IMG/VR virus record: IMGVR_UViG_3300044717_000016
Coordinates: 1-45,934 of that record
Source: a virus
Strand: one strand, 5' to 3'
DNA length: 45,934 nt
The translations under genes were made by a program, and so were the position numbers. Under the pieces are notes generated by a model. It saw only the letters and a program-made list of their open reading frames with translations. It ran no database searches and was not told the DNA's origin. This document shows positions 566 through 41,949 of the stretch, piece after piece (the first letter of the stretch is position 1; each line of letters opens with the position of its first letter).

Positions 566-3052
566 TCACTGATTGAGAACCCAAAAGGCAACCCGTGTCT
601 CGGCGGTTGCCGCCGCATTGCCGAACATCGTGAACGACCCCCCTGCGGGCACACACTGGACGCTCTTGAGCGTCGAGTCATTCGTTTGTATCGTGCACAG
701 CACGATGCTGTTTGTGGTGACGAGCGAGTTCGTCACGACGAGCGCCGCCGCCGAGGCCGCAAAGTTCACGCGACCCGACATCGTGTTGATGGTCGCCGCG
801 CCCGTGACCCCCGGCGCGATCACCGTCGTGTTGACGGACAACCCACCTGGGAAGTTGAGCAGTCCCTTATTGCCGCCAATCTGCATATCGCGAAGCGCCG
901 CCGCATCGCGGTCATAAGCGAGGAGCGAGGCAAACCCGGCCCCGCCAGCCGGATCGTAAATGCCACCGCTGATCCGCCCGTCGGCGTCATACCACATCTC
1001 AAGTCCTGCGCCGCCGACAGGCGTCAACGGCGTCGTCCCGTTCCGCAGCGCGAAGCTCTTGGTGTAGGCGCGCTCAACGCCCATAAAGTTCGGGGTGAAC
1101 GTATCCGGGTTCGTGATGTTCGGCTCGCCGTTTATCGTCGCCACCTCGTAGAGCGGACTCGCGCTGCCGCCCGTCGTATTAGTGAGCGCCGCCGTGCCGC
1201 TCTGGTTCAGGTTGAGGCGGCTGAAGAACGGGTTGATGGTGTTCGGCGTCGTCCTCACGCGGTAGTGCGTGCCCGACGCTGCGGAGTTGAAGTCGTTCGG
1301 CAAGAAGCGCGGGGCTATCGCATGATCGACGCTCACGCCGTCTAAAGTGGAACCGGACCCGATTGAATTGAAGATATTATCCCCGACTGTGAACCCCTGA
1401 ATCGGGTCGAGGTCGCCGCGGAAGTCCACGAGCGCGCCGTTCACGCCCACGGAACCCGCGAAGCCTAGCTCCACGATGTTTCTGAGATAGTTGATCGTGT
1501 AGCCGTTATGGAACGTGCCACATCCACCCCTGGATGTGCAGTTGTTGTCCAAGAAATTCAACGTGGTCGCACCCGTCACCTGTTTAGAGTCCACAGCCGC
1601 GCCCTCGCCGATGAATCGGTTATTGGTTATACGCAAGCTATCGCCCCACCAATTGCCGACGATGCCATTGCGAATAACGTTATTCGCAATGACCATCTGA
1701 TACTGACCGTCGAGGTTGGCGTAGGTGCTGCCATTTGAGTTATCGAAGTACATGGCTTTGCCCGAGAAAGACCCAAACCAGTTGCGCTCGATGGTGACAC
1801 CCTCGATGAACTGCCCCGCCGCCCTTGTGTCGAAGTACAGCGCGTGGCGTCCGGGCTGCGCGGGGTAGGGCTGCGTATACATCGAGGGCTCTGACTGGGC
1901 GAAGAATCCCACGTCGTGGATGTAGACGTTGCGGTTGTCGCGCCCGTTGGCCTGGTGAGCCCAAGCGCCCGTCGGCTGCCCGCCGGTCGCGGGCGGGGAG
2001 ATGTGAATGAAGTCAACCGTGTTCGGCGTCGTCGAGGTCATGACGAGGCCGGAGACCCAGTAGCCGTCGCCGTAGATGTGGAACTTCGCTTTGTTGAGCG
2101 TGAAGACCTGCCCCGACGTTCCAGAGACGAGACAGAGGCCGGGCAGATAGAGCGGCTTGCCCGTGAGCAGCATGGCGTTGAGTGCCAGGCTGATGGCCGA
2201 GGTGTCGTTCGTGCCGGTGCCCGTCGCCCAGTCAAAGTCACACTTCGCGTTGTAGGGCGCGTCCCGCGGGTTGATGACCTGCGCGCCGCCAGTCGCAATT
2301 GTGCCCGGCTCCCAGGCCCCACTGGACGAGTTATAGACGAGCCCCTGCCCTGTGGTGGGAGCGGTGGCAGACACGGTGCGGCCCTGTAACTGCGTGGCGT
2401 TGCCGCCCGACACAGTCGCGCCCGCCGACTGCGGCTCCCACTGGCCGGTCGTCGCGTTATAGCCGAGCACCTGCCCGTTTGCGGGCGCTGTATTCGTGAC
2501 GTTTCGCCCGCGCAGTTTATTGGCGTCAACCCCGGTGCAGTTTGAGCAGTCGATCGCGGGCTGCGTCTGCCAGCTCGACGCACCCTCGGTCCCGCCAACC
2601 AGCACGGCGTTCGGCTCTGGTGCTGAGATACCAGAGCCAAGTTTTTCTTCGACCTCGATAATCGCCTGCACCAGAGTGTTGTGGTGTGCGGCGGCGATGA
2701 TCCCGCGCACGCTCGCTCCCGAAGAGTGCGTGACGGCGGTGGAAGAGTCCGCGGCGCGTACCACGCCTGTGAAGGCCGAGCCCGTCTTACCAGAGTAGAA
2801 GAAAATCTCGTTATCGACGACGGCGGTCCCTGACGAGGGGAAAGAAGCCGTCGAGACGACCGCGATGGTCGTAGCACCGGCGGAGAGGCTGGCGGAGAGC
2901 GTCGTTTTCGCTGTGTTGGTCGCCCGGATCAGGCTGTCCTGCGAGTCTTGGGCCGAGGGGAACTTCACCGTGCCGGGCGTATCCTGCGCGAATATTGGTG
3001 CCGGGAGCGCGAGGAGCAGCGCGAGCGCGAAGGTCTGTCGAAGGTAATTCAC
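566..3052 (-). CDS. Tailspike/pectate-lyase-like beta-helix protein with Sec signal peptide
   Basis: 828 aa. I chose the GTG at 3052 because it has GGAGAA upstream and begins directly with a signal peptide (VNYLRQTFALALLLALPAPIFAQ region, cleavage near residue 23); the longer frame to 3151 overlaps the upstream gene. Residues about 40-130 are a fibre-like beta-rich segment, 165-250 hold two diverged LRGR/LQGR...GQ repeats, and from about 260 (NAKCDFDWATGTGTNDTSAI) the pattern is that of the pectate-lyase-3 type beta-helix used by many tailspikes. The last 70 residues (VTNSLVTTNSIVLCTIQTND...) resemble a C-terminal trimerisation cap of phage fibres. Likely recognises or depolymerises host surface glycan. 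The Sec signal is odd for a virion protein. Confidence 0.75.
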   Translation of the reverse strand: MNYLRQTFALALLLALPAPIFAQDTPGTVKFPSAQDSQDSLIRATNTAKTTLSASLSAGATTIAVVSTASFPSSGTAVVDNEIFFYSGKTGSAFTGVVRAADSSTAVTHSSGASVRGIIAAAHHNTLVQAIIEVEEKLGSGISAPEPNAVLVGGTEGASSWQTQPAIDCSNCTGVDANKLRGRNVTNTAPANGQVLGYNATTGQWEPQSAGATVSGGNATQLQGRTVSATAPTTGQGLVYNSSSGAWEPGTIATGGAQVINPRDAPYNAKCDFDWATGTGTNDTSAISLALNAMLLTGKPLYLPGLCLVSGTSGQVFTLNKAKFHIYGDGYWVSGLVMTSTTPNTVDFIHISPPATGGQPTGAWAHQANGRDNRNVYIHDVGFFAQSEPSMYTQPYPAQPGRHALYFDTRAAGQFIEGVTIERNWFGSFSGKAMYFDNSNGSTYANLDGQYQMVIANNVIRNGIVGNWWGDSLRITNNRFIGEGAAVDSKQVTGATTLNFLDNNCTSRGGCGTFHNGYTINYLRNIVELGFAGSVGVNGALVDFRGDLDPIQGFTVGDNIFNSIGSGSTLDGVSVDHAIAPRFLPNDFNSAASGTHYRVRTTPNTINPFFSRLNLNQSGTAALTNTTGGSASPLYEVATINGEPNITNPDTFTPNFMGVERAYTKSFALRNGTTPLTPVGGAGLEMWYDADGRISGGIYDPAGGAGFASLLAYDRDAAALRDMQIGGNKGLLNFPGGLSVNTTVIAPGVTGAATINTMSGRVNFAASAAALVVTNSLVTTNSIVLCTIQTNDSTLKSVQCVPAGGSFTMFGNAAATAETRVAFWVLNQ

Positions 3053-3068
3053 TTTCGTTTTCTCCGTT

Positions 3069-4469
3069 TCACTGAGGAATAAAGTGCGCGCAGTCCAGGG
3101 AGAAGGAGCCGCTCGACCCAGCAGCGGGAACGACATTCCCGCTCGAATCAATGGTTAAAATCCCCGCCGTGCCGATACTGTTGCAGACGAAGACAATGGT
3201 GCCCGACGGGCGCGAGCCTGACGGGAGGGTGAAGGCGGTTGTGCCTATCGTTCCGCCAGCAATCGTGCCTCTCAGCCAGATAGCTCCGCCCTGCGTCAGA
3301 TAGCCGGCGTTTGAGAATGGCGAACCGTAATTTGCCCACGAGTTGAGCAGGCTGGGCGCGGTGAAGGCCGGGGCCACCGACGTGAGTGAGCCCGTCAAGG
3401 AAAGGCTCGTGCCCGTGGCCACACCGATATTCGGCGTTGTCAGGTTTGGGGAGGCTTGGCCGACGACCGCGCCGCTGCCGGTCGTCGAGGAGAAGGCGGA
3501 GAGGGTCAACTGCCCGCCGCCGGCAGCGTTCGTATGGTTGTGCGTCGCGTTGCTGAAGTCGGCAATCGTCGGCGTCAGTATCGCCGGCGACTTGTTGAAG
3601 ACGAGCACTCCGCCCGCCGCAGAGCCGGTCTCGTCCGTGATGGCTGCGGCCAGATTCGCGCTCGTGTCGGAGACAGCGTAGCCCGAAAACGTCGTCGGGT
3701 TTGTGCCGCCGGTGACTCTGCCGGCTGTGTTGACGGTGATGCTGCGGTAGGTGTTCGCCGCGACGCCCGTCGCGTAGTCCTGTCCCGACGCCAGAGAGCC
3801 GGAGAGGTCCGGAAACGCGGGTTGAGCCGCGCCAAAGACGCCCTGCGCGCTCATAGAGATAAGAAATTGGTTAGCAGCCGCGCTCCTGGCCTGCGCTGTC
3901 GTCGAGTTCGCGTCCGGCACGTTGACCGTGCGTGTCGTCGAGGGCGAGATGCCAGACGCGTCGAATTTAAATTTCTTTGACGTGTCGGTGGGGTCAGAGA
4001 GGACGAAATTTGCCCCCGCCTGAAACGTCTGCGCAAACGCGCCGAAGGTGTTGGCCTGGTCGGTATAGACGGTGGCGGCGTGCTGCCTTGCCTTAGAAAG
4101 TGAGCCGGTGAAACCGAGGGTGAATTGGTGATTGTTTGACGAGCTTATGATCGTCAGTGTGACGTTCGTGTCGTCAACTTTGGAGAAGGTCTGCGTCGCG
4201 CCGATCTGCCCACCCAAACTCGTGACGCCCCCACCCCCGCCCCCGCCGCCCGTACTCAGCTTCGTCCAGGTATTGGTCGCCGAGCAGTAGTAATACTCCG
4301 TCGGCGAGACGCTCGTCTTGATGTAGACCTCGCCGGAAGAGGAGTCGCAGTTCGCGGGCAGGCTCGCGCCGTAGTTGATCCGTTTCGCCGCCGACGGGTT
4401 CTGCGCCGTTGCGCCGGCGCACGTGACGAGCGTGATGACGAGCGAAAGTAAAAATAATTTTAGTTTCAT
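3069..4469 (-). CDS. Tail-fibre-like protein with Sec signal peptide
   Basis: 466 aa, ATG at 4469 inside an ATGA overlap with the upstream gene. A signal peptide (MKLKLFLLSLVITLVTCAGA, cleavage near residue 23) is followed by a small domain with two cysteines and the motif CSATNTWT (residues about 40-75), a poly-Gly linker of eight glycines, then Thr/Ser/Asn/Ala-rich fibre repeats up to a compact C-terminal part ending in DCAHFIPQ. The CSATNTWT domain recurs in the protein at 17309-18154. Low complexity and composition fit a trimeric fibre shaft. Function inferred as host-surface binding; whether it is in the virion or exported is unclear. Confidence 0.65.
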   Translation of the reverse strand: MKLKLFLLSLVITLVTCAGATAQNPSAAKRINYGASLPANCDSSSGEVYIKTSVSPTEYYYCSATNTWTKLSTGGGGGGGGVTSLGGQIGATQTFSKVDDTNVTLTIISSSNNHQFTLGFTGSLSKARQHAATVYTDQANTFGAFAQTFQAGANFVLSDPTDTSKKFKFDASGISPSTTRTVNVPDANSTTAQARSAAANQFLISMSAQGVFGAAQPAFPDLSGSLASGQDYATGVAANTYRSITVNTAGRVTGGTNPTTFSGYAVSDTSANLAAAITDETGSAAGGVLVFNKSPAILTPTIADFSNATHNHTNAAGGGQLTLSAFSSTTGSGAVVGQASPNLTTPNIGVATGTSLSLTGSLTSVAPAFTAPSLLNSWANYGSPFSNAGYLTQGGAIWLRGTIAGGTIGTTAFTLPSGSRPSGTIVFVCNSIGTAGILTIDSSGNVVPAAGSSGSFSLDCAHFIPQ

Positions 4470-18691: not shown

Positions 18692-20155
18692 TTAGACCGT
18701 CTGCTTCGGCACGCGAATCTTGCGGTGGAACTTCGCGATCTGGAGCATGAGCCCCGACATCTCGAAGGGGACGAACGTGCGCGCGAGCTTCAGGTCGAAG
18801 CCCATCGGCAGTTCGAGGATGGTCGGCGTCGGGCTCCCCAGATAGGGAATCTTGACGCCGGTCGTGTCGAGCACGTCGATGTCTTCGACGACGTTGCCGC
18901 CGAAGGTGTAGTAGCCCATGCCCGAACCCTGCGAGCCGGCCGGGACGGTGACGATCTCGGACAGTTCCTTGCTGCCGAGGCGGATGCCGTTGGCGGAAAG
19001 GTTCGTGTCCACGCCGCCGTCGGGACGCGAGTTGGTGATGCGGTAAAACTCCTCCAACTCCTCGTCGATGACGATCTGGACGCCCTCGCTACAGAAAGCG
19101 ACGATGTTGCGAGCGGAGCCGCCCGCGTTGCGGATCTGCGCCGCGATGCGCCGGAGCGTCCGGCGGTAGGAATCGCCCGCGTCCTTCGTGAGCGACGTGG
19201 AGGCGTCCATCAGGAGCTTGCGCAGGCCGTCGTGGTCGAGGGCGTTATAGAGCCCGTCCTCGTCGTCGAGGGTGCGCGCGGCGGTCGAGCTGTTGCCCTG
19301 AAGGATGAGCGTCTGCTTCTTGCGCGCGATGCCCTTCATGGCCCCCATGACTTCGAGGTTGTCGTTGCCCTGAAGGTTGAAGTTGACCATCCCCGACTGC
19401 TGCACCGCGAGGGCGAGCTTCAGGCCGATGGCGACGGGCGAGACGATGATTGAGATGCGCGTCGACGCGTCGCGCTCGTAGGTCGAGTTGGTGAAGGCAC
19501 CGGAGAAGTCGCCGATGTCGTTGGTAGTGGTGCCGTCGGGGATGGCGGTGCGCACCTCATACGTGTGCACGAGGCCGTTGGCGGGGACGCGCGCGAAGCG
19601 CTCCGCGACGGGGAACTCTCTCAAGTATGCCTCGTAGAGAAACGGCTCGATGTCGGTGCGGATGAGGGGCGCGCCGGAGGTCGTGTCGAGCGCCCGGCGC
19701 ACGACATCGCTGTGGCCGCCGAGATTGCCCTTCGCCGCCGCGCCGAGGAGGCCCGTGCGCACGGCGTCCGAGACGCCTTCAACGTCGTCGCCCGCCTTCT
19801 GCGCGAGCAGCGCCTGAATCATCAATTCCAACTCGACATCGCCCACGACGAAGGTGTCCGTACCGGCGTGCTTCTGTCGTAGGAACCCCTTCGGGTCATC
19901 GAGCGCCTTGTTGGTGTCGAGGTGGCGGAAGGACTTGGAGAGCTTCGCCAGCGACTGGAAGCCCTTCGCGAGTCTGTCACCACCGATGCGCTCCTGCTGC
20001 ACGGCGTCCGTCGCCCCACCGGCGTCCTTGTTGACCGGGGCCGGCTGCCCGTCCGGGTTGGTGGCCGCGGCAGCGGTCTCGCCGCCCGTCAGCCTCTTCG
20101 CGATTGCTTCGAGCCGGTCCAGCGTGGTCGGCTTTTCGATTACTGCGTCTGCCAT
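18692..20155 (-). CDS. Major capsid protein (HK97 fold)
   Basis: 487 aa. The N-terminal 140 residues are charged, Ala/Gly-rich helices resembling a delta domain that the prohead protease would remove; from about residue 165 (GAPLIRTDIEPFLYEAYLRE) the sequence has capsid character: a long spine helix, SPVAIGLKLALAVQQSGMVN, and a C-terminal jelly-like section ending in RTFVPFEMSGLMLQIAKFHR. Located directly downstream of the protease/scaffold gene as in HK97-type phages. The exact cleavage site cannot be told from sequence alone. Confidence 0.8.
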   Translation of the reverse strand: MADAVIEKPTTLDRLEAIAKRLTGGETAAAATNPDGQPAPVNKDAGGATDAVQQERIGGDRLAKGFQSLAKLSKSFRHLDTNKALDDPKGFLRQKHAGTDTFVVGDVELELMIQALLAQKAGDDVEGVSDAVRTGLLGAAAKGNLGGHSDVVRRALDTTSGAPLIRTDIEPFLYEAYLREFPVAERFARVPANGLVHTYEVRTAIPDGTTTNDIGDFSGAFTNSTYERDASTRISIIVSPVAIGLKLALAVQQSGMVNFNLQGNDNLEVMGAMKGIARKKQTLILQGNSSTAARTLDDEDGLYNALDHDGLRKLLMDASTSLTKDAGDSYRRTLRRIAAQIRNAGGSARNIVAFCSEGVQIVIDEELEEFYRITNSRPDGGVDTNLSANGIRLGSKELSEIVTVPAGSQGSGMGYYTFGGNVVEDIDVLDTTGVKIPYLGSPTPTILELPMGFDLKLARTFVPFEMSGLMLQIAKFHRKIRVPKQTV

Positions 20156-20203: not shown

Positions 20204-20935
20204 CTAGCTGACGCTCACGCCCGCGCGCGGAAGAGGCTCTTTGCCGAAGCGTTCGAGCGCCGTCACGGCGGCCAGGCTAATGGCTTTTTCTACCTCAAGA
20301 TTTTCGACCGCCTGCTCACCTACCTTCAGCGCCAGTTCGAGCTGCCCTGCGAGGGCGCTCTTCTCCTCACGGAGTCGGCTGAGGTCGGTTTCGAGAGCGG
20401 CCACCTTCTTCGTGAGGGCGCCGCGGGAGACGACCGACGCCGATTTCTCGACTTCATCGTCCTCACCGTCTTCGCCCTCACCGTCGTCTTCACCGTCGTC
20501 AAACCTTTTGCACTCGACGCCGAGCTCGATGAGGGTGTCGTGCATCTTGTGCAGCAACTGTTGGTCGGCCTCACTGTTGCGCGCGCCGGCCTTCATCAAC
20601 TGCTCGAAGGGCACGCGGTTCAGTGCGTAATAGACCAGGTAAGCCTCGGCCTCCGGATCGCGCAGCATGGCGGCCTTGAGCGCGGCATGGAACTCGCCGA
20701 GCAGCTCGTCGAGCGCCGTCTCGTCCTTCTCCTGATTGCGCCAGTCGTAGAGCGCGGAGATGAGACACGCGAGCAGGAAGCTGACGGTGTTGTTGCGTTC
20801 GTCGACCTCCTCCTGAAAGAGACCCTTGAAGAGGCCCCGCTCGATCCGCTTCTTCTCCACCGCAACCGGGGCCGCGCCCGCTTCCGTCGCGCCGGCTGCC
20901 GTCGGCTCTTCAACGTTCGTCGTCTTTTCGCTCAT
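20204..20935 (-). CDS. Nested scaffold protein (internal start)
   Basis: In-frame ATG at 20935 (Met272 of the protease) is preceded by GGAAGAGAAAGTC, a better ribosome binding site than that of the full-length gene. It would give a 243-aa protein starting MSEKTTNVEEPTAAGATEAG, containing only the helical scaffold region. The layout copies lambda C/Nu3 and similar protease-scaffold pairs. Seen: site and frame; inferred: actual use. Confidence 0.55.
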   Translation of the reverse strand: MSEKTTNVEEPTAAGATEAGAAPVAVEKKRIERGLFKGLFQEEVDERNNTVSFLLACLISALYDWRNQEKDETALDELLGEFHAALKAAMLRDPEAEAYLVYYALNRVPFEQLMKAGARNSEADQQLLHKMHDTLIELGVECKRFDDGEDDGEGEDGEDDEVEKSASVVSRGALTKKVAALETDLSRLREEKSALAGQLELALKVGEQAVENLEVEKAISLAAVTALERFGKEPLPRAGVSVS

Positions 20936-21748
20936 GACTTTCTCTTCCTTTTTCTCTGTGCCGAGCCAAGCCGCCAACTCGTTGCGGAATCGCTCCACCG
21001 ATTGCGGGTCTTTCATATTCAGCGGGCTGAAGGTCGTGTAGAGAGCTTCGACTCCCCCGTCCTTCGTCGCGGCGGACTTACCGGCCGCGGCGTGCGCCCA
21101 CGCGGTCTGGTTGCAGGGGATGCCGACCATCGAGGTCTCGATATAGAAGACGTGGATGATCGTCCGACCGCCGCCCTTGCGCGCGACACTCTTCAAGACG
21201 AGCACGGTCACCGACACGCCCAGCTTTAGCCTGGAGCGCTGGAGCATGTTCGAGACGCGGACGGCGCGCGGGTTCTCTTCCTCGCCGACGGGCGCGATGC
21301 GGAGGTCCCAGCAGGTCAGCCTCTCGTTGTCTCCCGTGACGGGATTGAACAACTCACGGGCGACGATTTCGCAGTCTTCGACCTTGCCGTAGACATCCTC
21401 GGGCAACTCATATTTGTGATTGAGAAAGACCGTGGTGCCCTTGGCCGCCGCCTGCATCTCCTCGATGGCGCTCTCGGCGAAGTCGTCGCCGGAGAGGTCG
21501 ATGGCCGTCGAGGAGGCCGTGACCGGGATTAACTCATCGCCTGATTTTTCGGCGACGGAAAAGGCGGGCACCTCGTGCGAGATGAACTTTTTAACGGGAT
21601 AGCCGAGTGCTTTGAGGACCTTGAAGGCGCTCTTCTTCTGCGACATCGCCTCGCGGAACACGGCCTGCACGTCGAACTGCGACGCGTCGAAATCCTGCGT
21701 CCAACGCGGGATCGGCTGCTGGTCGTCTTGCTGGTCGTGCTCGCTCAT
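20204..21748 (-). CDS. Prohead protease with C-terminal scaffold domain
   Basis: 514 aa. Residues about 40-240 form a serine protease resembling the S78/XkdF-type prohead proteases: TTVFLNHKYELPEDVYGKVE gives a candidate catalytic His111 and LKLGVSVTVLVLKS a candidate Ser179. The rest is charged helix with an acidic patch (DDGEDDGEGEDGEDDEVEK) and a final coiled coil (LTKKVAALETDLSRLREEKS), as expected of a scaffold. It precedes the capsid gene. A second start inside the gene (20935) probably makes the scaffold on its own. Confidence 0.75.
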   Translation of the reverse strand: MSEHDQQDDQQPIPRWTQDFDASQFDVQAVFREAMSQKKSAFKVLKALGYPVKKFISHEVPAFSVAEKSGDELIPVTASSTAIDLSGDDFAESAIEEMQAAAKGTTVFLNHKYELPEDVYGKVEDCEIVARELFNPVTGDNERLTCWDLRIAPVGEEENPRAVRVSNMLQRSRLKLGVSVTVLVLKSVARKGGGRTIIHVFYIETSMVGIPCNQTAWAHAAAGKSAATKDGGVEALYTTFSPLNMKDPQSVERFRNELAAWLGTEKKEEKVMSEKTTNVEEPTAAGATEAGAAPVAVEKKRIERGLFKGLFQEEVDERNNTVSFLLACLISALYDWRNQEKDETALDELLGEFHAALKAAMLRDPEAEAYLVYYALNRVPFEQLMKAGARNSEADQQLLHKMHDTLIELGVECKRFDDGEDDGEGEDGEDDEVEKSASVVSRGALTKKVAALETDLSRLREEKSALAGQLELALKVGEQAVENLEVEKAISLAAVTALERFGKEPLPRAGVSVS

Positions 21749-22802: not shown

Positions 22803-24785
22803 TCACTCCTCACTATCGAGCGGGATGACCGTCCTCTTCCCCGACTTGTTGCAGAATGTCACGGCATCAACCTTGACCTTCGTCCCCGACAGGAAATCGT
22901 CGCCCGAATATCCTTCGCCCTTCCCGGACTGCACGTATGCGATGGTCGCGTGCGGCACGTACTCCGGGTGTGTGTCCGTGTGCTCCAGCGCGTCGGCGAT
23001 CTTCTGATTCAATCGCTTCAGCGCCGCGCCCTTCACCTCGACGATGACCACGTCGAACTCCTCGCCCTCGAAGACCGCGGTCTTACCGAGCGTGAGCGTG
23101 AAAGGCTTAACGCCCTTCAGCGCCTCGCGCACGTCGTCGGCGCTGTTCGTCTCCAGCCCGTACTTGATCGTCACGTGCGGCCGAGCCTCGCGCCCGTCAC
23201 CGGCCACCTCGCCGTCGGGGATGCCCTCACCGAAGGCGATGATCTCGTCGGCCACGTCGCCCGGCAGGTCAACCTGTGTCGTCGAGTACTGGTGCGCCGA
23301 CTTCCTGACGACATGCTCGAACGGTAGGCCGGAGCGCAGCATCAGACGGGCTCCGGCTGTGAGCCGCTTACCCGAAGCGGCATCGCCCGCGGTACCACCG
23401 GCGGTATCACCTTCACCCTCAAGCGGAGCCTCCGGTGCGGGTTCCGGCTCCGGCTCTTTCAACTTGCCGCTCTCGTCGAAATATTGCGCGTTCAGTGCCG
23501 AGAGCGGGATGTAGCTGCCCTGTGTCTTCAGCAGTGGCTCGTCGGCGATGGGCAAGTCGAAGGTCGGCTTGCCTGCGTCTCTCGCCGCTTGATTGATTGT
23601 CACCCACGGCACCTGACCGGTCTGCTTCTCACTCACCTCCGACTGTAATTTTTCATCTCTGCGTGACATGATCGGATAGTCGATCATGCAGTTGTGCTCA
23701 CTGACGGGGCCCCACTTGCGCGTCAGGTGCAGATTCTCCATCTCCTTGATGCGCCACAGGAGTGCGCCCGGCCCCTTGTCCGCGTTCTCCAAGAGCGATT
23801 CGGTGTTGGCGCGCGAGGCATCGACCAGCTCGCCCAGCATGGCCAGCGGAAGCTGAAAGATAGCCGCGACCATGCGCTTGAAAAAAAGAAGCTTGTCGAG
23901 CGCCTTTAGGTCGCGCTCGGAGGCGTTGAAGGGGATGAACTTTGAATTCTTCCCGCCCGAAATGACGGCGAAGAAATTCCTGATCTGCTGAATTTCCTGG
24001 CGGAAGGCATCCACCTGTTCTTTGGTGTAGCCCTCGCCGAGGTCGAAGGCGCCGCCCGGCGTGCGGTCGATGAGCTGCTGGAGAAACTGGTCGCTCCCCT
24101 GAAGGAGAGCCCGGATCGAGGTGTCGAGAAGCTCGACGTGCGAGAGGCCGAGCAGGTCGTAAGAGCGCGGGCGGTTGACGAGCGTCATGCACATCTGGTC
24201 CGGCAGCCAGCGCTTGACCTGCCGGTCGAAGGTCAACTCACAGTAGCGCGGCAGACTTGCGTCGGTGCCGTCCCATCCGGGGACAAAGGCGACGCGCTCG
24301 GCGTCCAGCGGGAAGATGCCCCAGGGCGTGGTGTCGCGGTTGATGCCGAGTTCCATCGAGCCGTGGCCGACGACGAGGAAGTCTTCGGTGAACTTGCCCT
24401 TGACGGTGCTGTAGGGCTCGAAGCCGTTCGGGGTCGCGAGGACCGCCTTGATCTCGGCGCGGACGCTCTCATTCATGGGGCGCGTCTGGTCGTAAGGAAC
24501 CACCTGCCACTCGGCCTGCTCGATGCAGTTGCGATAGATGTCGAGCGCGGCGCGCACCGGCTCCGAATGCTCGGCGTACTGGCGCAGCAGCAGCACCCGG
24601 CGCTTGACGAAGAGGCGGGACATGTCGCCCACAGTGCCCCGGAGGACGACGAGCGCGCGGTTGGCCGAGCCGCCGTCGAGACCGCCGCCGAGCATCTGAT
24701 CGTCGAGAGATTTATCGGTCTGCTCCCACTCCCCGAAGCCCGTGAGCGCTTTCGCGCCGCTGATCACCTTGCCAAGTAAGCTCAT
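22803..24785 (-). CDS. Portal protein fused to a 2H phosphoesterase (LigT-like) domain
   Basis: 660 aa, ATGA overlap with the upstream small gene. Residues about 50-420 are a portal: HSEPVRAALDIYRNCIEQAE, FLVVGHGSMELGINRDTTPW, and the helix KEMENLHLTRKWGPVSEHNC. An acidic Pro/Glu/Gly-rich linker (about 445-470) is followed at 496-660 by a separate domain starting HQYSTTQVDLPGDVADEIIA with two H-x-T motifs, HVT at 537-539 and HAT at 612-614, the catalytic signature of 2H phosphoesterases. Such enzymes open cyclic or 2',3'-linked nucleotides; some phage members (Acb1) destroy CBASS signals. Terminase lies just upstream, confirming portal identity. Confidence 0.85.
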   Translation of the reverse strand: MSLLGKVISGAKALTGFGEWEQTDKSLDDQMLGGGLDGGSANRALVVLRGTVGDMSRLFVKRRVLLLRQYAEHSEPVRAALDIYRNCIEQAEWQVVPYDQTRPMNESVRAEIKAVLATPNGFEPYSTVKGKFTEDFLVVGHGSMELGINRDTTPWGIFPLDAERVAFVPGWDGTDASLPRYCELTFDRQVKRWLPDQMCMTLVNRPRSYDLLGLSHVELLDTSIRALLQGSDQFLQQLIDRTPGGAFDLGEGYTKEQVDAFRQEIQQIRNFFAVISGGKNSKFIPFNASERDLKALDKLLFFKRMVAAIFQLPLAMLGELVDASRANTESLLENADKGPGALLWRIKEMENLHLTRKWGPVSEHNCMIDYPIMSRRDEKLQSEVSEKQTGQVPWVTINQAARDAGKPTFDLPIADEPLLKTQGSYIPLSALNAQYFDESGKLKEPEPEPAPEAPLEGEGDTAGGTAGDAASGKRLTAGARLMLRSGLPFEHVVRKSAHQYSTTQVDLPGDVADEIIAFGEGIPDGEVAGDGREARPHVTIKYGLETNSADDVREALKGVKPFTLTLGKTAVFEGEEFDVVIVEVKGAALKRLNQKIADALEHTDTHPEYVPHATIAYVQSGKGEGYSGDDFLSGTKVKVDAVTFCNKSGKRTVIPLDSEE

Positions 24786-25054
24786 AGCCTGAACATCCTT
24801 AAATGCTGCCCCACGATCTGAGAGACGGCACCCGACACCAGCCGCCCGGAACGCTCCGCGCTGAAGCCCCCCATGAAAACCTCGAAGGTCACGCGCTTGA
24901 GCGCCGGAGCCAGTTTACGCAGCTCGTCGCCGCCGCCCAGTTCCGCGACGAACGCGGCGGGCACTTGGCGAACGCCGTCGGCGAATTCAATGGCGACCGG
25001 CGGCTCGACGAGGCCGCCGAGGCTGAAGACGGGAGGACTGTTTTGCTCGCTCAT
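24782..25054 (-). CDS. Small protein between terminase and portal
   Basis: 90 aa, ATGA overlaps on both sides. Starts MSEQNSPPVFSLGGLVEPPV; the central ELGGGDELRKLAPALKRVTF and a C-terminal SGAVSQIVGQHLRMF helix are the only notable parts. No domain recognised. Coupled translation suggests a role in packaging or portal assembly. Confidence 0.65.
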   Translation of the reverse strand: MSEQNSPPVFSLGGLVEPPVAIEFADGVRQVPAAFVAELGGGDELRKLAPALKRVTFEVFMGGFSAERSGRLVSGAVSQIVGQHLRMFRL

Positions 25055-26301
25055 GCCGCGGCTCCCACTAATCGGCCGAGAATTGACGCGGCCGCCGATT
25101 GCTGTGTACCTACCGTCCCGCCGGCGGTCGAGCCGACTGAGATCGCGCCCCCGGTTTCGCCCAGGTGGATCGCATAACTCCCGTACCGCCCGCCGTCCAT
25201 CAGGTGGTCATCGAACTTGATCACCTCGTCCAAGACTTTGCCGTTGCGGTCCGTCTTCCACGAGTATCGTTTGATCTCGCGCAAGAGGTTCGGACTGTTG
25301 GCGTCTACCCGGAGCGGGCACGACTTAATAAAATCAATCGTGTCCTTCACGTCCTTGTACGCCGCCCTGATCTGGAAGCCCGCGCGCGCTATTTCTTCAA
25401 TCGTCTTCGGCTCGGCGCTGTCGGCGATGATCTCCGCGCCGCGTGCCCGCCCTTTCTCCGCGTCATACAGCTCGGGGAGAGTCTTCAATTTCCCGATCAG
25501 GTCGGAGGTCGTGAGCTTCGACTCGTAGAGCATCTCGCGCCAGTAGAGGACGCGGTCGGCGTAGGTCGCTTCGAGGAGCGCCGTCGGATTGTTGTAGCCG
25601 AAATCCAGCCCGTAGACCTTGATGCCGACCTCAGGGATCGTCGTCGTCTCGCGCCAGTGGGTGAAGACGCGTGACGAGCCGCTGCCGGGCTCGCCGAGAC
25701 CGTAAACTTTCCAGTAATCGGCGTCCGCCTCGCGCAACCGCTCAATCTCGGCGACGAGCGACGCCTCAAGGAAGGGGTTGTCGAGGTAGGTCGTGACGAG
25801 CATGTCGCAGTCTTCACGCGTCTCCACGTCGTCGTAGATCCACGAGAAAGCCTCCGACGGGTTGTAGTCGAGGACGATCTTGTCGGTGGTTCTGAAGGCC
25901 AGTTGCCGGAAGGCTTCGAGCTCGCTCTCGTTGGCCTCGTTGAGGAAGAGATAATTACGCTTGCGACCGCGCACGCGCATCGACTCGGAGAGGCCGACGA
26001 ACTCGACCAGGTTGCCGTGCAGGTGATACTCGTTCGAGGTTTTGTTGTGGCACGACTCGTCATAGAGGGTGAGGCGATTGAGGATCTCGAAGAAGTCGCG
26101 CATCGCGGAGGCGCGCAAGGCCGGCATGGTCTGCCGTGCGATGGTGAGGACTTTGCCGTGCTCCTGGAGGAGCCTCGTGACCCAGTAGATGAGGGTGTTG
26201 GTGGTTTTACCCGAGCGGGTGCCGCCGCGCAACGAGGTGATGCGCTTCGTCGAGTCCGTAAGAAACTCGAAGACGACATTACTGCTGATCTCCGCTTCCA
26301 T
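25051..26301 (-). CDS. terL: Terminase large subunit
   Basis: 416 aa, Terminase_3-like. Walker A GGTRSGKT (residues 26-33), Walker B YLFLNE (about 117-122), and a nuclease with candidate metal ligands Asp233 (GLDFGYNNPT), Asp294 (IIADSAEP) and Asp369 (FDDHLMDGGRYG). It cuts concatemers and pumps DNA into the prohead through the portal encoded downstream. Start ATG 26301 overlaps the small subunit gene by 23 bases. Confidence 0.93.
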   Translation of the reverse strand: MEAEISSNVVFEFLTDSTKRITSLRGGTRSGKTTNTLIYWVTRLLQEHGKVLTIARQTMPALRASAMRDFFEILNRLTLYDESCHNKTSNEYHLHGNLVEFVGLSESMRVRGRKRNYLFLNEANESELEAFRQLAFRTTDKIVLDYNPSEAFSWIYDDVETREDCDMLVTTYLDNPFLEASLVAEIERLREADADYWKVYGLGEPGSGSSRVFTHWRETTTIPEVGIKVYGLDFGYNNPTALLEATYADRVLYWREMLYESKLTTSDLIGKLKTLPELYDAEKGRARGAEIIADSAEPKTIEEIARAGFQIRAAYKDVKDTIDFIKSCPLRVDANSPNLLREIKRYSWKTDRNGKVLDEVIKFDDHLMDGGRYGSYAIHLGETGGAISVGSTAGGTVGTQQSAAASILGRLVGAAA

Positions 26302-30655: not shown

Positions 30656-31888
30656 TCAATTCGCCTTCAGCTTTTCGTGTCGGCACCGCGCCGCTCCTTT
30701 ATCGTATCCCTCCGGGTACCACATCCCAGTGCCGAAGCAGTCCGGGCATTGCGTCGCGCTGGCGATGCGTGCCGCCGGCGTCTGCTGCCCCTGTGACGCG
30801 GTTTCGGCGTCGAGCTGGCGCTTCTCCTTCTTCCACAACCGGCGACGCAGATGCTCGGCGAGAAACGCAGGCGCGCTGGAGACTGTCGTGCGACCGGCGG
30901 CAATTTTCAGCTCCGTGACGAGCAGTTCCGCTACTTCCGCCCAGCGCTCGCCCTCAGCCGCGGTGGTTCTCTTCCCCGTCACCTCGATTGTTGCCCGGTG
31001 CAGCCGAGAAACTAGTTCGGCGAAAGCCTCATCATCAGTTTTTTGCTCAATAGTCTTAAAAGAAGTCTTAGGCTCGCCGGAAGTGTTTACGTCGCTTGAA
31101 GATAAGGTACTACCGGTACTACCACTTTCCGGTATTACCGGTAGTACCGAATTTCGGGTAATCTCGGTACTACCGATTCGATTGGTAGTACTGGTTAAAT
31201 CGGATAGACCGAAAACGCCCGCTGCTACCTCCTCGGGGGTGAACACCTCATATTCGTTTCCGCTATTTTCCCCAACGATTGTCTTGACGGAAACCAGCCC
31301 GACGGTTTGGAGATGCGCCAGCGCGGCGTCCACTGTGCCCATCGATCCGAACCCTGCCGCGGCCTTGATCTGAGGGCGGGAGCGACGCACGGTGCGAGAG
31401 GGAACGACGGCACCGCGCGACTGGCTCCAGAGATAGTCCCACACGTGCTTGCTCTTGCCCTTGAAGAGTCGCTCCGCCATCGCGGCGCGCGTGATTGAAT
31501 TCGGCACCTTTTGAAAATCACGTTCGGGGGATACTGCGGACACTTCCCTGACGACCCCGGCCTGCTTGGTACTATCATCTTTGCCGGTACTACCAGTTCG
31601 CTTAGTAGTACCTACTTTCCGGCTACTACCGGCTTTACCGGTAATACCTAAAACATCGGTACTACCAGTCTCGGCGGTAGTACCGGCATGTTCGGTACTA
31701 CCACTTTTATCGGTAGTACCGCTGGCTTCGATATGTGCTCCGTCATCGGGAAGGGAGCCGCCGTAGATGATCTCCTCAATCGGGTGACGCTCGGTCGGGA
31801 GTTTGACGCGGTCGAACATCCCCGCGCCTGAGAGCCTTCCCGGTGTCCGCGTCTTGATGGGTTCCTTTTTCTCTTTAGGATCAGTCAC
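30656..31888 (-). CDS. Winged-helix replication initiator candidate with internal iterons
   Basis: 410 aa, GTG start at 31888 in a GTGA overlap with parA. Residues about 57-107 are a 6-residue repeat G(S/T)Txxx, the translation of 18-bp iterons. Residues about 120-225 are a winged-helix domain (KVPNSITRAAMAERLFKGKS, SRPQIKAAAGFGSMGTVDAA, LAHLQTVGLVSVKTI). Residues about 232-261 come from a second iteron cluster. The C-terminal part has a helical region and a C-x2-C...C-x-H-like end (CPDCFGTG...CRHEK). The overall plan, DNA-binding protein with origin repeats inside its own gene, copies lambda O. A centromere-binding partner of ParA is the main alternative. Confidence 0.65.
   Translation of the reverse strand: MTDPKEKKEPIKTRTPGRLSGAGMFDRVKLPTERHPIEEIIYGGSLPDDGAHIEASGTTDKSGSTEHAGTTAETGSTDVLGITGKAGSSRKVGTTKRTGSTGKDDSTKQAGVVREVSAVSPERDFQKVPNSITRAAMAERLFKGKSKHVWDYLWSQSRGAVVPSRTVRRSRPQIKAAAGFGSMGTVDAALAHLQTVGLVSVKTIVGENSGNEYEVFTPEEVAAGVFGLSDLTSTTNRIGSTEITRNSVLPVIPESGSTGSTLSSSDVNTSGEPKTSFKTIEQKTDDEAFAELVSRLHRATIEVTGKRTTAAEGERWAEVAELLVTELKIAAGRTTVSSAPAFLAEHLRRRLWKKEKRQLDAETASQGQQTPAARIASATQCPDCFGTGMWYPEGYDKGAARCRHEKLKAN
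31106..31192. repeat. Iteron cluster 2 (GGTASTACC motifs)
   Basis: Copies or near-copies of the 9-bp dyad GGTA(C/G)TACC at 31106, 31115, 31131, 31140, 31157 (degenerate), 31166 and 31184. Spacings are 9, 16, 9, 17, 9 and 18 bp. Directly to the left (31031-31070) is an A/T-rich stretch, 29 of 40 bases by my count, in an otherwise GC-rich gene: a candidate unwinding element. Confidence 0.8.
31568..31720. repeat. Iteron cluster 1: nine motifs at an 18-bp period
   Basis: Nine copies of GGTASTACC or close variants start at 31568, 31586, 31604, 31622, 31640, 31658, 31676, 31694 and 31712, that is, exactly every 18 bp. C- and G-centre versions alternate in part, so sites face alternately. The half between cores is variable, so selection is on the 9-bp core. 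Not noticed elsewhere in the window. Confidence 0.9.
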
Positions 31889-32685
31889 CCGACTTCCTCC
31901 TTAGCGACCAGTTTCAGGTGAGAACTCATCGAGAGCCTGCTGAGAATCTCGTCCGTCAGATTCTCGTAGTCCTCGCTGCCGGCAGACTTGGGCGAGTGCT
32001 CGTAAATGCTCTTACGGTAGGCCGGCGCAACCTGTAGGCTCACGTTGTCGCGGATGATCGTCTCGAAGACATCATCCCCGAACATCTCTTTAACCTTCGT
32101 CAGCGCCTCGGCGCAGATGTTCTTGCGCTGATGAAACCGCGTCACCAGGTAGCCGAGCATCGAGAGGCGGGGGTTGGGCTGACGTGCGAAGCGGATAGTC
32201 TCCTGAAGGTCGGCGACGCCCTCCAGCGGGTAATACTCGGCGGCGATCGGGACGATGATGTGTGTTGAAGCCAGGAGCGCCTGCGTCAGCGTGAGGCCGA
32301 GCGTATGCGGGCAGTCGAGGATGACGAAATCGTAGGGGTCGGGAAGAGAACTGAGCGCCTCCTTGAGTCGGTACTGCTCCTGGAGCGTGACCATCTGGTC
32401 GAGCATGGCGACCCGGATGTGGCTGGGGACGAGATCGAGTTTGTCGATGTGCGTGGCGTAGCGCGCCTCTTCGAGCAGGATGCGATTGTCATGCCCGACG
32501 AGCACGTCAGCGAGCGTGACCGTGATCTGCTCGGGCTCAAAGTAGGTCTGCGTCGAGTTGCGCTGGCTGTCGAGGTCCATCAGCAGCGTCTTATAGCCCC
32601 GGATGGCGAGGCCGGCGGCCAGGTTAACGGCCGTTGTGGTCTTGCCCACCCCGCCTTTCTGATTGGCGATAGAGATCGTCTTCAA
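31885..32685 (-). CDS. parA: ParA/Soj-type partition ATPase
   Basis: 266 aa, TTG start at 32685 in a TTGA overlap with the HTH gene. Deviant Walker A KGGVGKTTT at residues 10-18, MDLDSQRNST (Walker A'), and FVILDCPHTLG (Walker B) define a ParA/MinD-family ATPase without an N-terminal HTH domain. It would move replicated DNA along the nucleoid together with a centromere-binding protein. No ParB of the usual type is present; the HTH protein upstream or the iteron-bearing protein downstream could fill that place. Confidence 0.9.
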   Translation of the reverse strand: MKTISIANQKGGVGKTTTAVNLAAGLAIRGYKTLLMDLDSQRNSTQTYFEPEQITVTLADVLVGHDNRILLEEARYATHIDKLDLVPSHIRVAMLDQMVTLQEQYRLKEALSSLPDPYDFVILDCPHTLGLTLTQALLASTHIIVPIAAEYYPLEGVADLQETIRFARQPNPRLSMLGYLVTRFHQRKNICAEALTKVKEMFGDDVFETIIRDNVSLQVAPAYRKSIYEHSPKSAGSEDYENLTDEILSRLSMSSHLKLVAKEEVG

Positions 32686-36836: not shown

Positions 36837-37238
36837 TTAAGACTCCCCCATCGCCCGCTTGAGCGCGGCGTATTTCTCCGCGGTCACGGCCTCCCGGCGA
36901 TGCATCTCGGCGATAATCACGTCCTTCGGGAAAACCTGCGCGGACCTCTCGGCGGCGCGCGCGGCCTCCAGCGCCCGGACGAACTGGCGCGCGGCCTGCA
37001 CCACGTCAGCCGCGGCCCCCGCCGCCTCGGCGAGCGCGCGCCCGTCGGCAACCCCCTTGTCGTAGGCGGAGACTAGCCAGTTGAAGATGTCCTGTCTCAG
37101 ACACTCCGGGTTCAAGTGGAACGCCGCCCCGTCGAGGATCGCGTCCCGACCGCGCGCCGCGTACTTCAGCCCAGCCGCCGTGCTCGGCAGCGACCCTTCC
37201 GCCTCCTCATGGCCGCGCCGGTCGCGTTGGTCTGTCAC
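36837..37238 (-). CDS. Hypothetical protein next to the recombinase
   Basis: 133 aa; ATGA overlap with the recombinase gene upstream, so they are co-translated. Helical, Ala/Glu/Arg-rich second half (VVQAARQFVRALEAARAAER). Possibly a recombination directionality or accessory factor, by position only. Confidence 0.6.
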   Translation of the reverse strand: MTDQRDRRGHEEAEGSLPSTAAGLKYAARGRDAILDGAAFHLNPECLRQDIFNWLVSAYDKGVADGRALAEAAGAAADVVQAARQFVRALEAARAAERSAQVFPKDVIIAEMHRREAVTAEKYAALKRAMGES

Positions 37239-38209
37239 AGGCCGCCTCTCGCGGGCCGCAGGTGCAGGGACGGGTGTCGCTTCCGCAGCACGCGGACCAT
37301 GTGCTCCTTACTAACGTGCGTGTAGCGCTGGGTGGTCGCGATAGAGGCGTGTCCCAGGAACTCCTGCACGACCCGGATGTCGGCGCCGTTCTTGAGCAGC
37401 AATGTCGCCACCGTGTGGCGAAGCATGTGCGGGGTGATGTGACGCCTGATCCGCGCCTCCCGGCGCAGGCGCGCGATCACGTAAGTTATCCCCTGAGTCG
37501 AGAGCCGCTCGCCTGAGGGGTTGAGGAACAGCGCCGGGCAGTCCGTCCTGACGCGCGACCGCGCCTCCAAGTGTGTGCGCTGTATCCGCAGCGTCTGCTC
37601 GTCGACGACGAATGCCAGTCGGTCCCTGCCCCCCTTTCCCTGCACCCTGAAGACCGCCTCTCTGGAGGAGTAATCCCGCACGTCCAGCGCAGAGACTTCA
37701 CCCACGCGCATGCCCGTGGCGAAAAGGAGGTCAACCAGCGCGAGGTCTCGCAGCGCGCGGTAGACGCCGACGGGCTGTCCATCCGCCTCCTCGCCTTGCC
37801 CGGCCGAGACGGCGAGATAGTTTCGCTGCGCGCGCCTCAACAGCGAGCGCATCTCCCACTCGGTTAAAGCCCGGGGGAGCTGCTCGACGCGGCCGAAGCT
37901 TAGCTTCACTCTCCAGAAGGGCGACTCCGTCAGCACTCCCTTACGCACCCAGTAAGAGCAGAACACCTTGAGCGCGACGACCTTCCGCCGTATCGAGGCG
38001 GGCGCGTACTGTTCCTCACGCAGGTGTGCCGCCCAGCTCTCTATCAGAGAGCTGTCGAGAGACGAGAGAGTGACCTCGTCGCCGGCGAAAGCGTTGAACT
38101 GAGCGAGGTCGCAGCGGTAGGCCGACTCAGTCTTCTCCCCACGCCCGTACGTCGAGAAGTAACCGCGCAGAAACTCAACGGCGGCATTACTTAATCGCAT
38201 ATCACTCAT
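37235..38209 (-). CDS. Tyrosine recombinase, XerC/D-like
   Basis: 324 aa. N-terminal SAM-like core-binding domain (residues 1-110), then the catalytic domain with Arg168 (TGMRVGEV), Lys192 (GKGGRDR), His261/Arg264 (HMLRHTVATLLL), His287 (LGHASIATT) and Tyr296 (RYTHV): a full set. Xer-like enzymes integrate phage DNA or resolve multimers of circular replicons. One of two recombinases encoded almost back to back. Confidence 0.9.
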   Translation of the reverse strand: MSDMRLSNAAVEFLRGYFSTYGRGEKTESAYRCDLAQFNAFAGDEVTLSSLDSSLIESWAAHLREEQYAPASIRRKVVALKVFCSYWVRKGVLTESPFWRVKLSFGRVEQLPRALTEWEMRSLLRRAQRNYLAVSAGQGEEADGQPVGVYRALRDLALVDLLFATGMRVGEVSALDVRDYSSREAVFRVQGKGGRDRLAFVVDEQTLRIQRTHLEARSRVRTDCPALFLNPSGERLSTQGITYVIARLRREARIRRHITPHMLRHTVATLLLKNGADIRVVQEFLGHASIATTQRYTHVSKEHMVRVLRKRHPSLHLRPARGGL

Positions 38210-38469: not shown

Positions 38470-39510
38470 TCAATCGCCCGGCGGGCTGTAAGGAACCGGC
38501 AGCAGCCGCACGGCGGAGGCCATCTGCCGCTCGTCGCGCCGGTCGTAACGCCGGGTCGTGGTAAAGCTCGCGTGCCGCCCAAGCTTCTGCGCGGTCGAGC
38601 CGTCGGTCAGCGAGAGCATTTCCGAGATGTAGGTGCGCCGCAGGTCGTGCGGCGTGAACGGCATCACGCGCGCCGCACGCGCCATGCGTTTGACGACGAG
38701 ATAGACGGCCTGACCTGAAAGGCCACGCCCGCGCTCGATCTTCCCGGTCTGCGTCACGGGCGCGAGCAGAGGCCCGGCAGAGCGGCCGCGCACGGCGATC
38801 CAGTCGCGCAGGGCGCGCGCCGCCCCCAGGGGCAGCGGGAGCGCCGCCGTCCGGCCGCCCTTGCCCCGCAGGCGCAGCGCGCCCGCCTGCGGGTCGAACG
38901 CTTCCGAGGGCAGCGCGCCCGCCTCGTCGCGCCGCAGGCCCGCGCCGTAGAGCAGGGCGAGCAGTGCCGCGTCGCGCCGGCCCCGCGCCCCCGAGTCGCG
39001 CGCGCACATCTTGAAGAGCCGGGCAATCTCGCGGCGCGAGAGCATACGACCGGGCGGGAGCGCCTCGTGGCGCACGCCGGGCACGCGGAGGATGGCGTGC
39101 AGGTCGGCGGGCGAGATGAGCCCCGCGTCGCAGGCGATGCGCGCCGTCTGCCTGAGCGCCGCCAGCGTGAGGTTGACCGTCGAGGCAGAAGCCTTGTCCG
39201 CCAGGAGCCGCGCCTTGATGTATTTGACGTGCTCGAAGCGCAGCGTCTCCCACGCAAAGGTGGCAACGGTCGCGCCCGGGCGCAGGTAGCGCACCGCCCG
39301 CTCCAGGCGCGCGCGCATACTCCGGCGGCCTGATTCCGACAAGTCCCAGAGATAAGAGGCGGCCGGATTAACCTGCCCCATGCCGGGGAGCAGATCGGAG
39401 AGCGAATCGCCCGGCCGCAGCACCCCCTGGGGCCGGGCGGCGGTGGCCACGACCCGGAGGTGTCCCGCCGCTCGCGAAGCGCTTTCGTGATTCAGCCTTC
39501 TCATAAGCAC
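38470..39510 (-). CDS. Second tyrosine recombinase
   Basis: 346 aa, start GTG 39510 (or ATG 39504), GGGGG before. Catalytic set Arg193 (GAGLRRDEA), Lys217 (GKGGRTA), His288/Arg291 (HDLRRTYI), His313 (LGRHASFTTT), Tyr322. Higher GC than the first recombinase and only distantly similar to it. Two complete recombinases may divide integration and resolution, or one may be a later arrival. Confidence 0.88.
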   Translation of the reverse strand: MLMRRLNHESASRAAGHLRVVATAARPQGVLRPGDSLSDLLPGMGQVNPAASYLWDLSESGRRSMRARLERAVRYLRPGATVATFAWETLRFEHVKYIKARLLADKASASTVNLTLAALRQTARIACDAGLISPADLHAILRVPGVRHEALPPGRMLSRREIARLFKMCARDSGARGRRDAALLALLYGAGLRRDEAGALPSEAFDPQAGALRLRGKGGRTAALPLPLGAARALRDWIAVRGRSAGPLLAPVTQTGKIERGRGLSGQAVYLVVKRMARAARVMPFTPHDLRRTYISEMLSLTDGSTAQKLGRHASFTTTRRYDRRDERQMASAVRLLPVPYSPPGD

Positions 39511-40027: not shown

Positions 40028-40156
40028 ACGACCTTTCTCCTTCCACTTCGCAACGGCCAGCAAGTGCAGTCCGCCCGGCCCCTGCGACATGGCGCGAGCG
40101 ACGACGGCCCGGTCGGCGAAGTGGACGGCGAGATCGATTGTCCAGTCGAGTTTCAT
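40025..40156 (-). CDS. Tiny hypothetical protein
   Basis: 43 aa starting in a TGATG overlap with the HerA-like gene: MKLDWTIDLAVHFADRAVVA. Translationally coupled, so likely real, function unknown. Confidence 0.5.
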   Translation of the reverse strand: MKLDWTIDLAVHFADRAVVARAMSQGPGGLHLLAVAKWKEKGR

Positions 40157-41949
40157 CAACTGAGCCCCTCCGGAAATAGGAGACCGGTTGCCCGGACGGA
40201 GCCCGGCTGCGGATAGTCGATCAGTCCGAGGCTCCGGAGCGAACCCAGATTGTTGGCGTAGCCCGAGCTGGTGGCGCTCTGTTCCGACAGCTCGGCCAGC
40301 GTCGCTTTGCTGATCGCAGACGGATGGCGGTCGATGAGCGCGCGGAGGATCTTCACTTTCGGTGAGGAGAGCTTCGCGAACCAGGCGCGGTGCAACTCGT
40401 CGAGCGACGCGATGGGGGCGGAGTCGCCGGCGCACGCAAGCCCCGCCCCTGTCAGCGCGACCTGCCCGCCCGCGAGATACTCGATGAGCCCGAGCATGCG
40501 CAGCCGCCCCAGGTTATTCGCGTAGCCCGAGCTGGTGGGCGACTGGTCGCTGAAGACAGCCACGTTACTCTTCGAGACCGGCTCCAGGCCGAGGAGGCGG
40601 AAGGATTGCAGCGTGTCGAGGATGCGCTGCATCGGGCGCGTCACATCGCCGTCAGCAACAGGGGCTGGTTGAGCCGCGCGGCCCGACGGTGCCGGCTGAG
40701 GGACGGCGCGGGGAGCTTTGGGGGCGAAATTGCTAATCGGTGGGTGAGCCGCGGTGTCCTTCGCCATTCCCAACCGCCTCACGCCTTCGAGCATGAATTC
40801 CCGAATCTCGTCCGTCGCTTGCAGCGCCGCGCGCATCTCCTCGGCGTACACTCTCAGGGCTTCGAGGTTTGCAACGCAGCGCTCGACGCGCGCGATCTGC
40901 GCGTCGGTGATGACGGGCACTTCGATTCGTTCGACTCTGGTTGCGGCCTCGGCCACCACGCGAGGCAAATCCTTTTTGAGCTTTTCCGCCTCACGCTTCA
41001 ATTCCGCCACCTGGCGCTTCAATTCCTCCGGGTCGTTAGCTTTCGCTTTCTCGATACTGTCGGCGATCTTTTCCTTCAGCTCCTCTAGGTCAACTGGGGC
41101 CAGCTTCGCGGGCGTGACACGCCGCTCGCCCACTCTGGGCGTCGCTGACGAGTTAAACGTCTCGCGCGCGCGGACTTGGATGAGGCGGAATTCCTCCAGC
41201 CAGCTCGGGCTGTAGAACCACGCCTCGCCCGTCTTCAGCGACGCGAGCGTCGCCGACACCTCTTCGAGCTGCGACTTGTCGCCGTTGCGTTTGACCCAGT
41301 CCTTCACGGCGTCCTGGTCCTGCGGCGAAGTGGTCTGCAGCGCGATGATCACTTCGACCTGGGTGAGGACGTTTTTGTTGAGCACGGCGGGGCGCTGCGT
41401 GATCAGCGTCATGCCGAGGCCCCGGATGCCGCCGCGCCGCACCAGATCCTCGAACGCGCCGAGCATCGTGCGCTGTCCGGGCGTCGGCTGCTGCGGCGCG
41501 AACGCGTCCGCCTCGTCGATGAAGAGATGCAGCGGATCGCGGTGCTTGTCCTTCAGCCGGTAGAGGCGTCTGGCGAAGTCGGTGGCGAAGCGGTCCTGCG
41601 CGTCGTTCGACTCCGTGTCAGAGAGGTCGATGACGTAGAAGCCCGGGTGCTCGACGACGAGCTCGGCAATAACCTTCCCCGACGCGGCGTCGAGCGGCAG
41701 GTCGCCGTGCAGTCCGCCGACGATGACGACGGGCAGCCCCTCGGACTTGCCATCGGCGGAGGAGCGCAGGCCCCACCAGGCCCCCGTCGGGTCGAGGACG
41801 ACGAACGGGAGGCCGGCCCTGGCCATCTCCTCCGCGATCACTGAAGCGGTGTAGGTCTTCCCCACCCGGCGCTTGGCCAGGATCGCGAAAGTCTGCGTCA
41901 CGGCGTCGAGCGGGAGCGTGAGGTCGTCTGAAATTTTAAGTGTTTTCAT
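40156..41949 (-). CDS. HerA/FtsK-like ATPase with two winged-helix units
   Basis: 597 aa. AAA-like ATPase (residues 1-250): AILAKRRVGKT (GKT at 30-32; the first Gly of the usual loop is Ala), Walker B HLFIDEAD (141-148), sensor ITQRPAVLNK. Then a coiled coil (about 295-345: LKRQVAELKREAEKLKKDLP), and two repeats at 458-507 and 546-597 sharing S-x2-S-x-TSSGYANNLG-x-LR-x-LGLI. HerA-like motors move DNA in repair, conjugation and anti-phage systems. In this phage it could act in DNA processing or segregation. No nuclease partner (NurA) or Sir2/DUF4297 is adjacent. Confidence 0.8.
   Translation of the reverse strand: MKTLKISDDLTLPLDAVTQTFAILAKRRVGKTYTASVIAEEMARAGLPFVVLDPTGAWWGLRSSADGKSEGLPVVIVGGLHGDLPLDAASGKVIAELVVEHPGFYVIDLSDTESNDAQDRFATDFARRLYRLKDKHRDPLHLFIDEADAFAPQQPTPGQRTMLGAFEDLVRRGGIRGLGMTLITQRPAVLNKNVLTQVEVIIALQTTSPQDQDAVKDWVKRNGDKSQLEEVSATLASLKTGEAWFYSPSWLEEFRLIQVRARETFNSSATPRVGERRVTPAKLAPVDLEELKEKIADSIEKAKANDPEELKRQVAELKREAEKLKKDLPRVVAEAATRVERIEVPVITDAQIARVERCVANLEALRVYAEEMRAALQATDEIREFMLEGVRRLGMAKDTAAHPPISNFAPKAPRAVPQPAPSGRAAQPAPVADGDVTRPMQRILDTLQSFRLLGLEPVSKSNVAVFSDQSPTSSGYANNLGRLRMLGLIEYLAGGQVALTGAGLACAGDSAPIASLDELHRAWFAKLSSPKVKILRALIDRHPSAISKATLAELSEQSATSSGYANNLGSLRSLGLIDYPQPGSVRATGLLFPEGLS

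Follow-up and report, generated by a model that had tools for sequence, protein, structure and literature searches.

A 2H phosphoesterase domain on an HK97-type phage portal protein, with a likely role in counter-defence

Fusions of 2H domains to MuF or portal domains were described in 2017, together with 2H domains in polyvalent proteins; according to that paper the fused forms had never been observed alongside RNA ligases, and they may act as RNases or break down nucleotides used in defence (PMC5512222). The 2H-portal/MuF account is repeated in a 2022 paper, which, in the part available, adds head packaging and injection (PMC9503650). Among open-licence PMC papers we found no experiment on the portal-2H idea and no account of the BCSR5 phosphodiesterase (9q2g); in the accessible text, PMC7824862 held no 2H-portal statement, PMC12287305 deals with a metallophosphoesterase and PMC12657218 merely mentions Acb1. 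A second point of comparison is Acb1 (T4 gene 57B), a free protein in T4.

The protein reported here, likened to the systems of PMC5512222 and PMC9503650 by the text description in their available parts, has the same architecture as those for which head delivery and counter-signalling were proposed. Carrying 2H on a portal, it falls among head-delivered 2H effectors, defined by fusion of 2H to portal or MuF. Since both the fusion and the counter-defence idea appear in these sources, the fusion, which is real and conserved, is of an already described kind. New here are the finding of one 2H subfamily behind portals of four Pfam families, a relative of the portal that lacks the domain and the position of solo 2H genes between terminase and portal.

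The portal fusion and its neighbouring genes

The window, meaning the whole stretch of 45,934 nt analysed, carries a minus-strand ORF (22803-24785) encoding 660 amino acids. The features of this ORF and of its surroundings are as follows.

25051..26301, minus strand: terminase large subunit, upstream of the portal (PF04466, E 3.9e-17; phrog_2, E 9.9e-38)
24782..25054, minus strand: 90-aa ORF between terminase and portal, overlapping the portal start (ORF only)
23466..24785, minus strand: portal half, residues 1-440, HK97/PF04860-type (PF04860, E 7e-13; phrog_2662, E 1.3e-17)
23301..23465, minus strand: linker rich in acidic residues, proline and glycine, residues 441-495 (sequence)
22803..23300, minus strand: 2H phosphoesterase domain, residues 496-660 and stop (PF13563, E 2.2e-16; AlphaFold2 pLDDT 93.5; PDB matches)
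23169..23177, minus strand: first catalytic motif, HVT 537-539, with H537 and T539 (72-domain alignment)
22944..22952, minus strand: second catalytic motif, HAT 612-614, with H612 and T614 (72-domain alignment)
20204..21748, minus strand: probable capsid maturation protease and scaffold (position; our reading)
18692..20155, minus strand: probable major capsid protein (position and conservation)

In the full protein, residues 77-333 match the Pfam family PF04860 (Phage_portal), and residues 534-620 match PF13563 (2_5_RNA_ligase2). Together with the predicted fold of the C-terminal half, these matches bear out the preliminary description of a portal that ends in a 2H domain. Both HxT motifs were found after the acidic linker where it had placed them. 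The portal half scored 48.9 bits against the PF04860 cut-off of 39.1. No match to PF06381 (DUF1073/Phage_portal_3) was obtained at E <= 1 in the window, in its sister phage or in the Acidobacteriota genome G341, in a search whose two named controls matched below cut-off and with a library that detects PF06381 in two other loci (L090 and L100). Hence the earlier impression that the portal half is not of the DUF1073 type was correct. The further suggestion, a separate fusion outside DUF1073, holds for the portal of the window but is not new: 2H-portal fusions are present in the available text of PMC5512222 and PMC9503650, and the same 2H subfamily also lies behind DUF1073, Mu-type, lambda-type and PF04860 portals.

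The sole solved portals found by the portal profile were those of gene transfer agents, weakly (E 0.025). The Rhodobacter capsulatus portal (6te8, 6tba) belongs to the HK97 family like that of the window, but its chain of 393-396 residues is too short for a 2H extension. A prediction of the full-length fusion from two sequences only gave a pLDDT of 30 (AlphaFold2) and was set aside.

Neither the 90-aa ORF nor the probable protease and capsid genes had a Pfam or PHROG match. Counterparts of the protease/scaffold gene occupy the corresponding position in L001 (8704-10140) and L043 (8024-9556), with a tblastn match in L076, and the probable capsid is 58% identical to an L076 product. Elsewhere in the window we noted tyrosine integrases at 37235-38209 and 38470-39510 and a ParA-like ATPase at 31885-32685, which suggest a temperate phage, perhaps with plasmid-like persistence. 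The gene at 40156-41949 encodes a HerA-like ATPase, which also matched a terminase PHROG.

Family, fold and candidate substrates of the 2H domain

Detection of the 2H domain lies far beyond chance as judged by profile scores: PF13563 was matched at E 1.5e-13 with the whole chain and at E 2.2e-16 with the domain on its own, the score being 60.7 bits against a cut-off of 27, and PHROG 755 (RNA ligase) matched the domain alone at E 3.7e-10. The structure prediction that had been proposed as a check returned a confident 2H fold (AlphaFold2 of the domain alone from a 10-sequence alignment, mean pLDDT 93.5, pTM 0.86), with 2H enzymes as the best solved matches. In order of falling VIA-align Z score they were TT0787 (16.2), drCPDase (16.1), YjcG, E. 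coli LigT (14.9), human Usb1 (14.4), AKAP18 and Acb1 (7t26, 12.8). In an alignment of 72 domains the catalytic residues are conserved as H 72, T 72, H 72 and T 71, while the commonest residue of the median column reaches 49% only; these counts are favoured by the IMG/VR scan itself, in which two of three selection patterns cover the HxT motifs. Given this conservation, the portal-fused domain very likely has 2H-type chemistry. In one portal-2H fusion (L126) the second catalytic threonine is replaced by alanine.

The substrate is less readily predicted from these data. The leading alternative to a counter-signalling enzyme is an RNA enzyme, either trimming or healing RNA ends (2',3'-cyclic phosphates) or acting as a Usb1-like RNase once infection has begun, for instance against tRNA-cutting defences. 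LigT, CPDase and Usb1 are among the best structural matches, an RNase role is one reading for this class in the available part of PMC5512222, and TIGR02258 (LigT/ThpR, RNA 2',3'-cyclic phosphodiesterase) was matched, at 34.3 bits against a cut-off of 65.7. The window domain differs from LigT/ThpR in its portal fusion, and a common fold does not give the substrate. Neither RtcB nor PF09414 RNA ligases gave a match in the window or in its sister, both of which may be incomplete records, and this argues mildly against RNA repair; in a search with PF09511 the control did not match. Repair of RNA or tRNA ends thus appears the less supported role, and we regard the RNA enzyme as possible though rather unlikely.

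Considerably more doubtful is the reading of the domain as a true Acb1, orthologous to the anti-CBASS nuclease and cleaving the di- and trinucleotides of CBASS. The domain shares the 2H fold and the HxT/HxT tetrad with Acb1, 7t26 aligns with it, and the Acb1 profile (PF23474) gave a weak match (E 2.3e-5). Nevertheless, the scores of 24.6 bits for the domain and 19.5 for the whole protein lie below the cut-off of 27, LigT-like structures score higher, and identity to T4 Acb1 is 19% (alignment A6) with most pocket residues different. Of the pocket positions Y12, W74, F107, E141 and W147, given in the part available of PMC9117128, A6 places F at W74 and H at F107 and keeps none of Y12, E141 and W147, leaving one aromatic among the five, positions near the two poorly aligned ends being less sure. 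Tryptophan is absent from 51 of the 72 domains, that of the window included. Three relatives (L079, L137, L150) pass the Acb1 cut-off, so by sequence the subfamily as a whole sits between LigT and Acb1. A PADLOC search for defence systems gave one chance-level match only.

Relatives with and without the domain

A sister phage, on IMG/VR contig 3300034026_000014 (L001, L006), shares the fusion at about 70% identity, and a third example occurs on contig 3300034172_000006 (L076), whose products are 60% (portal), 41% (protease) and 58% (capsid) identical to those of the window. The window portal half is 73% identical to the L001 portal and 45% to that of L043, an Acidobacteriota contig on which we read QueE- and FolE-like genes (2010-3276) near a phage terminase; these possibly serve 7-deazaguanine DNA modification. 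Between window and L001 the 2H domain shows 73% identity and a dN/dS (NG86) of 0.24, the portal core 82% and 0.17, and the linker (residues 441-492) 40% with 13 gap columns. By these sequence comparisons the 2H domain is maintained under purifying selection, and the linker can vary freely. No conserved cleavage site was found in the linker. An internal start at a linker methionine was considered, with GGAG 8 bases before the ATG in the window (by eye), and was not relied on, because at the equivalent point the sister phage reads TTG TTG and lacks a site of this kind.

In one of 396 Acidobacteriota genomes (G341) we found a portal of 46% identity in the same gene order that ends after an acidic tail and has no 2H domain; the single PF13563 gene of that genome is on another contig. 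Because this related portal lacks the domain, the domain is dispensable for portal function and, on sequence comparison, accessory; it was either gained in the window lineage or lost in the G341 lineage. In the same 396 genomes the A4 search matched 11, one strongly (a polyvalent protein of G001) and ten weakly. A tblastn search of 50,697 phage records gave 2H matches only and no portal relative at E <= 1e-5.

The IMG/VR scan with the 10-sequence alignment returned at least 470 relatives of the 2H subfamily, of which the best 80 loci were kept; 13 proved redundant over the first 100 matched residues and were dropped, leaving 67 (L082 stands for L080, L081 and L083). In 15 of these 67, all drawn from the scan seeded with this same subfamily, 2H lies behind a portal, and four Pfam portal families are represented, as listed here.

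PF04860 portal-2H: L076, L088, L119, L126, L138, L146 and L152 by Pfam; L006 by alignment to the window portal
PF06074 Mu-type portal-2H: L104 and L139 above cut-off; L089 and L096 below
PF06381/DUF1073 portal-2H: L090 and L100
PF05136 lambda-type portal-2H: L082, just below cut-off

Three of the 15 rest on portal matches below cut-off (E 2.6e-4, 3.5e-4 and 6.2e-8). In L086 2H is joined to MuF, and portal, 2H and MuF form one chain in L089, L138 and L152, likewise in L088 and L119 with MuF below cut-off. In the remaining loci 2H is part of a polyvalent protein, the longest reaching about 3,500 aa inside the stretch retrieved, or is encoded by a gene of roughly 190 aa; Pfam was run on 24 of the 67 loci, the solo and polyvalent labels rest on ORF length, and the tree label Prot (L108, L113) is our reading, the other halves having no Pfam match. 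Two portal-2H chains run on further, into a zeta-toxin-like kinase domain (L090, 528-4337) and into a topoisomerase I core (L139, 3654-7001).

On a quick 72-domain tree the window groups with L006 (SH-aLRT 99) and then with L076 (90), the portal families fail to cluster together, and portal versus other labels takes eight changes. In that tree 32 of 69 forks are open and the starred branches force only two changes for the PF04860 group. Fusion of 2H to portals is therefore likely, from the tree, to have occurred repeatedly, and the number of events is not fixed because many forks are weakly supported.

Huge phages also carry 2H as a solo gene, placed between terminase and portal (LR756511.1, L008). 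With LR756511.1 proteins as tblastn queries, terminase and portal were found around L112, L114, L134, L136 and L140 and a portal near L123, and the L001 terminase found a terminase near L135. Together with L003 and L008, these seven loci place a packaging gene near at least nine of 20 solo loci, a lower bound since few queries were used. The portals of L003 (5137-7710) and L008 (6168-8735) apparently contain an intein-like insertion by our reading. In the 635-kb phage LR745206.1 (L004, L063-L074) we observed an N-terminal leader resembling MK[HY]LKxFxES that is also on the 2H gene; within 240 kb sampled, 31 of 321 genes carry it. Among ORFs that start with MK or MN the figure is 31 of 131, compared with 3 of 184 for internal MK/MN positions. 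This leader is similar to the beginning of T4 ipI and, by analogy, may be a head-targeting signal marking head-packaged proteins (for T4 capsid targeting see the available part of PMC5694885).

That the domain at the portal crown is a structural module, binding nucleotide or RNA during assembly without turnover, would suit its covalent place within the portal and the terminase-portal slot of the solo gene, but we hold this to be improbable, as carriers of widely differing kinds, polyvalent ones included, preserve the four catalytic residues, and a related portal manages without the domain.

Proposed role of the portal-borne enzyme

We lean, by a modest degree, towards a working 2H enzyme on an HK97/PF04860-type portal that likely acts in counter-defence by removing a host nucleotide alarm signal, a proposal in which we infer catalysis, substrate, virion location and delivery. 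The two HxT motifs would hydrolyse, without metal, a phosphodiester beside a 2'- or 3'-OH, candidate bonds being those of a cyclic nucleotide or a 2'-5' or 2',3'-cyclic linkage. Portal C-termini normally point into the head interior, so each portal ring would hold 2H domains next to the packaged DNA. The alarm signal could be removed by the portal pool of late infection; alternatively, domains freed at the linker might be ejected with the DNA. We know of no ejection of portals themselves.

Beyond this counter-defence role we tentatively offer a broader idea, which we consider rather improbable as a whole. A single 2H subfamily may have been repeatedly grafted onto the inner face of unrelated portals, onto MuF and into a solo slot between terminase and portal, since the portal vertex would best store an enzyme that acts first on entry; its substrate would be a nucleotide signal beyond the range known for Acb1.

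Should the domain prove active, a portal-borne enzyme of fixed copy number could counter nucleotide-signalled immunity ahead of all phage gene expression. The broad distribution of this arrangement, together with the natural control provided by a related portal without the domain, makes the portal-2H idea directly testable.
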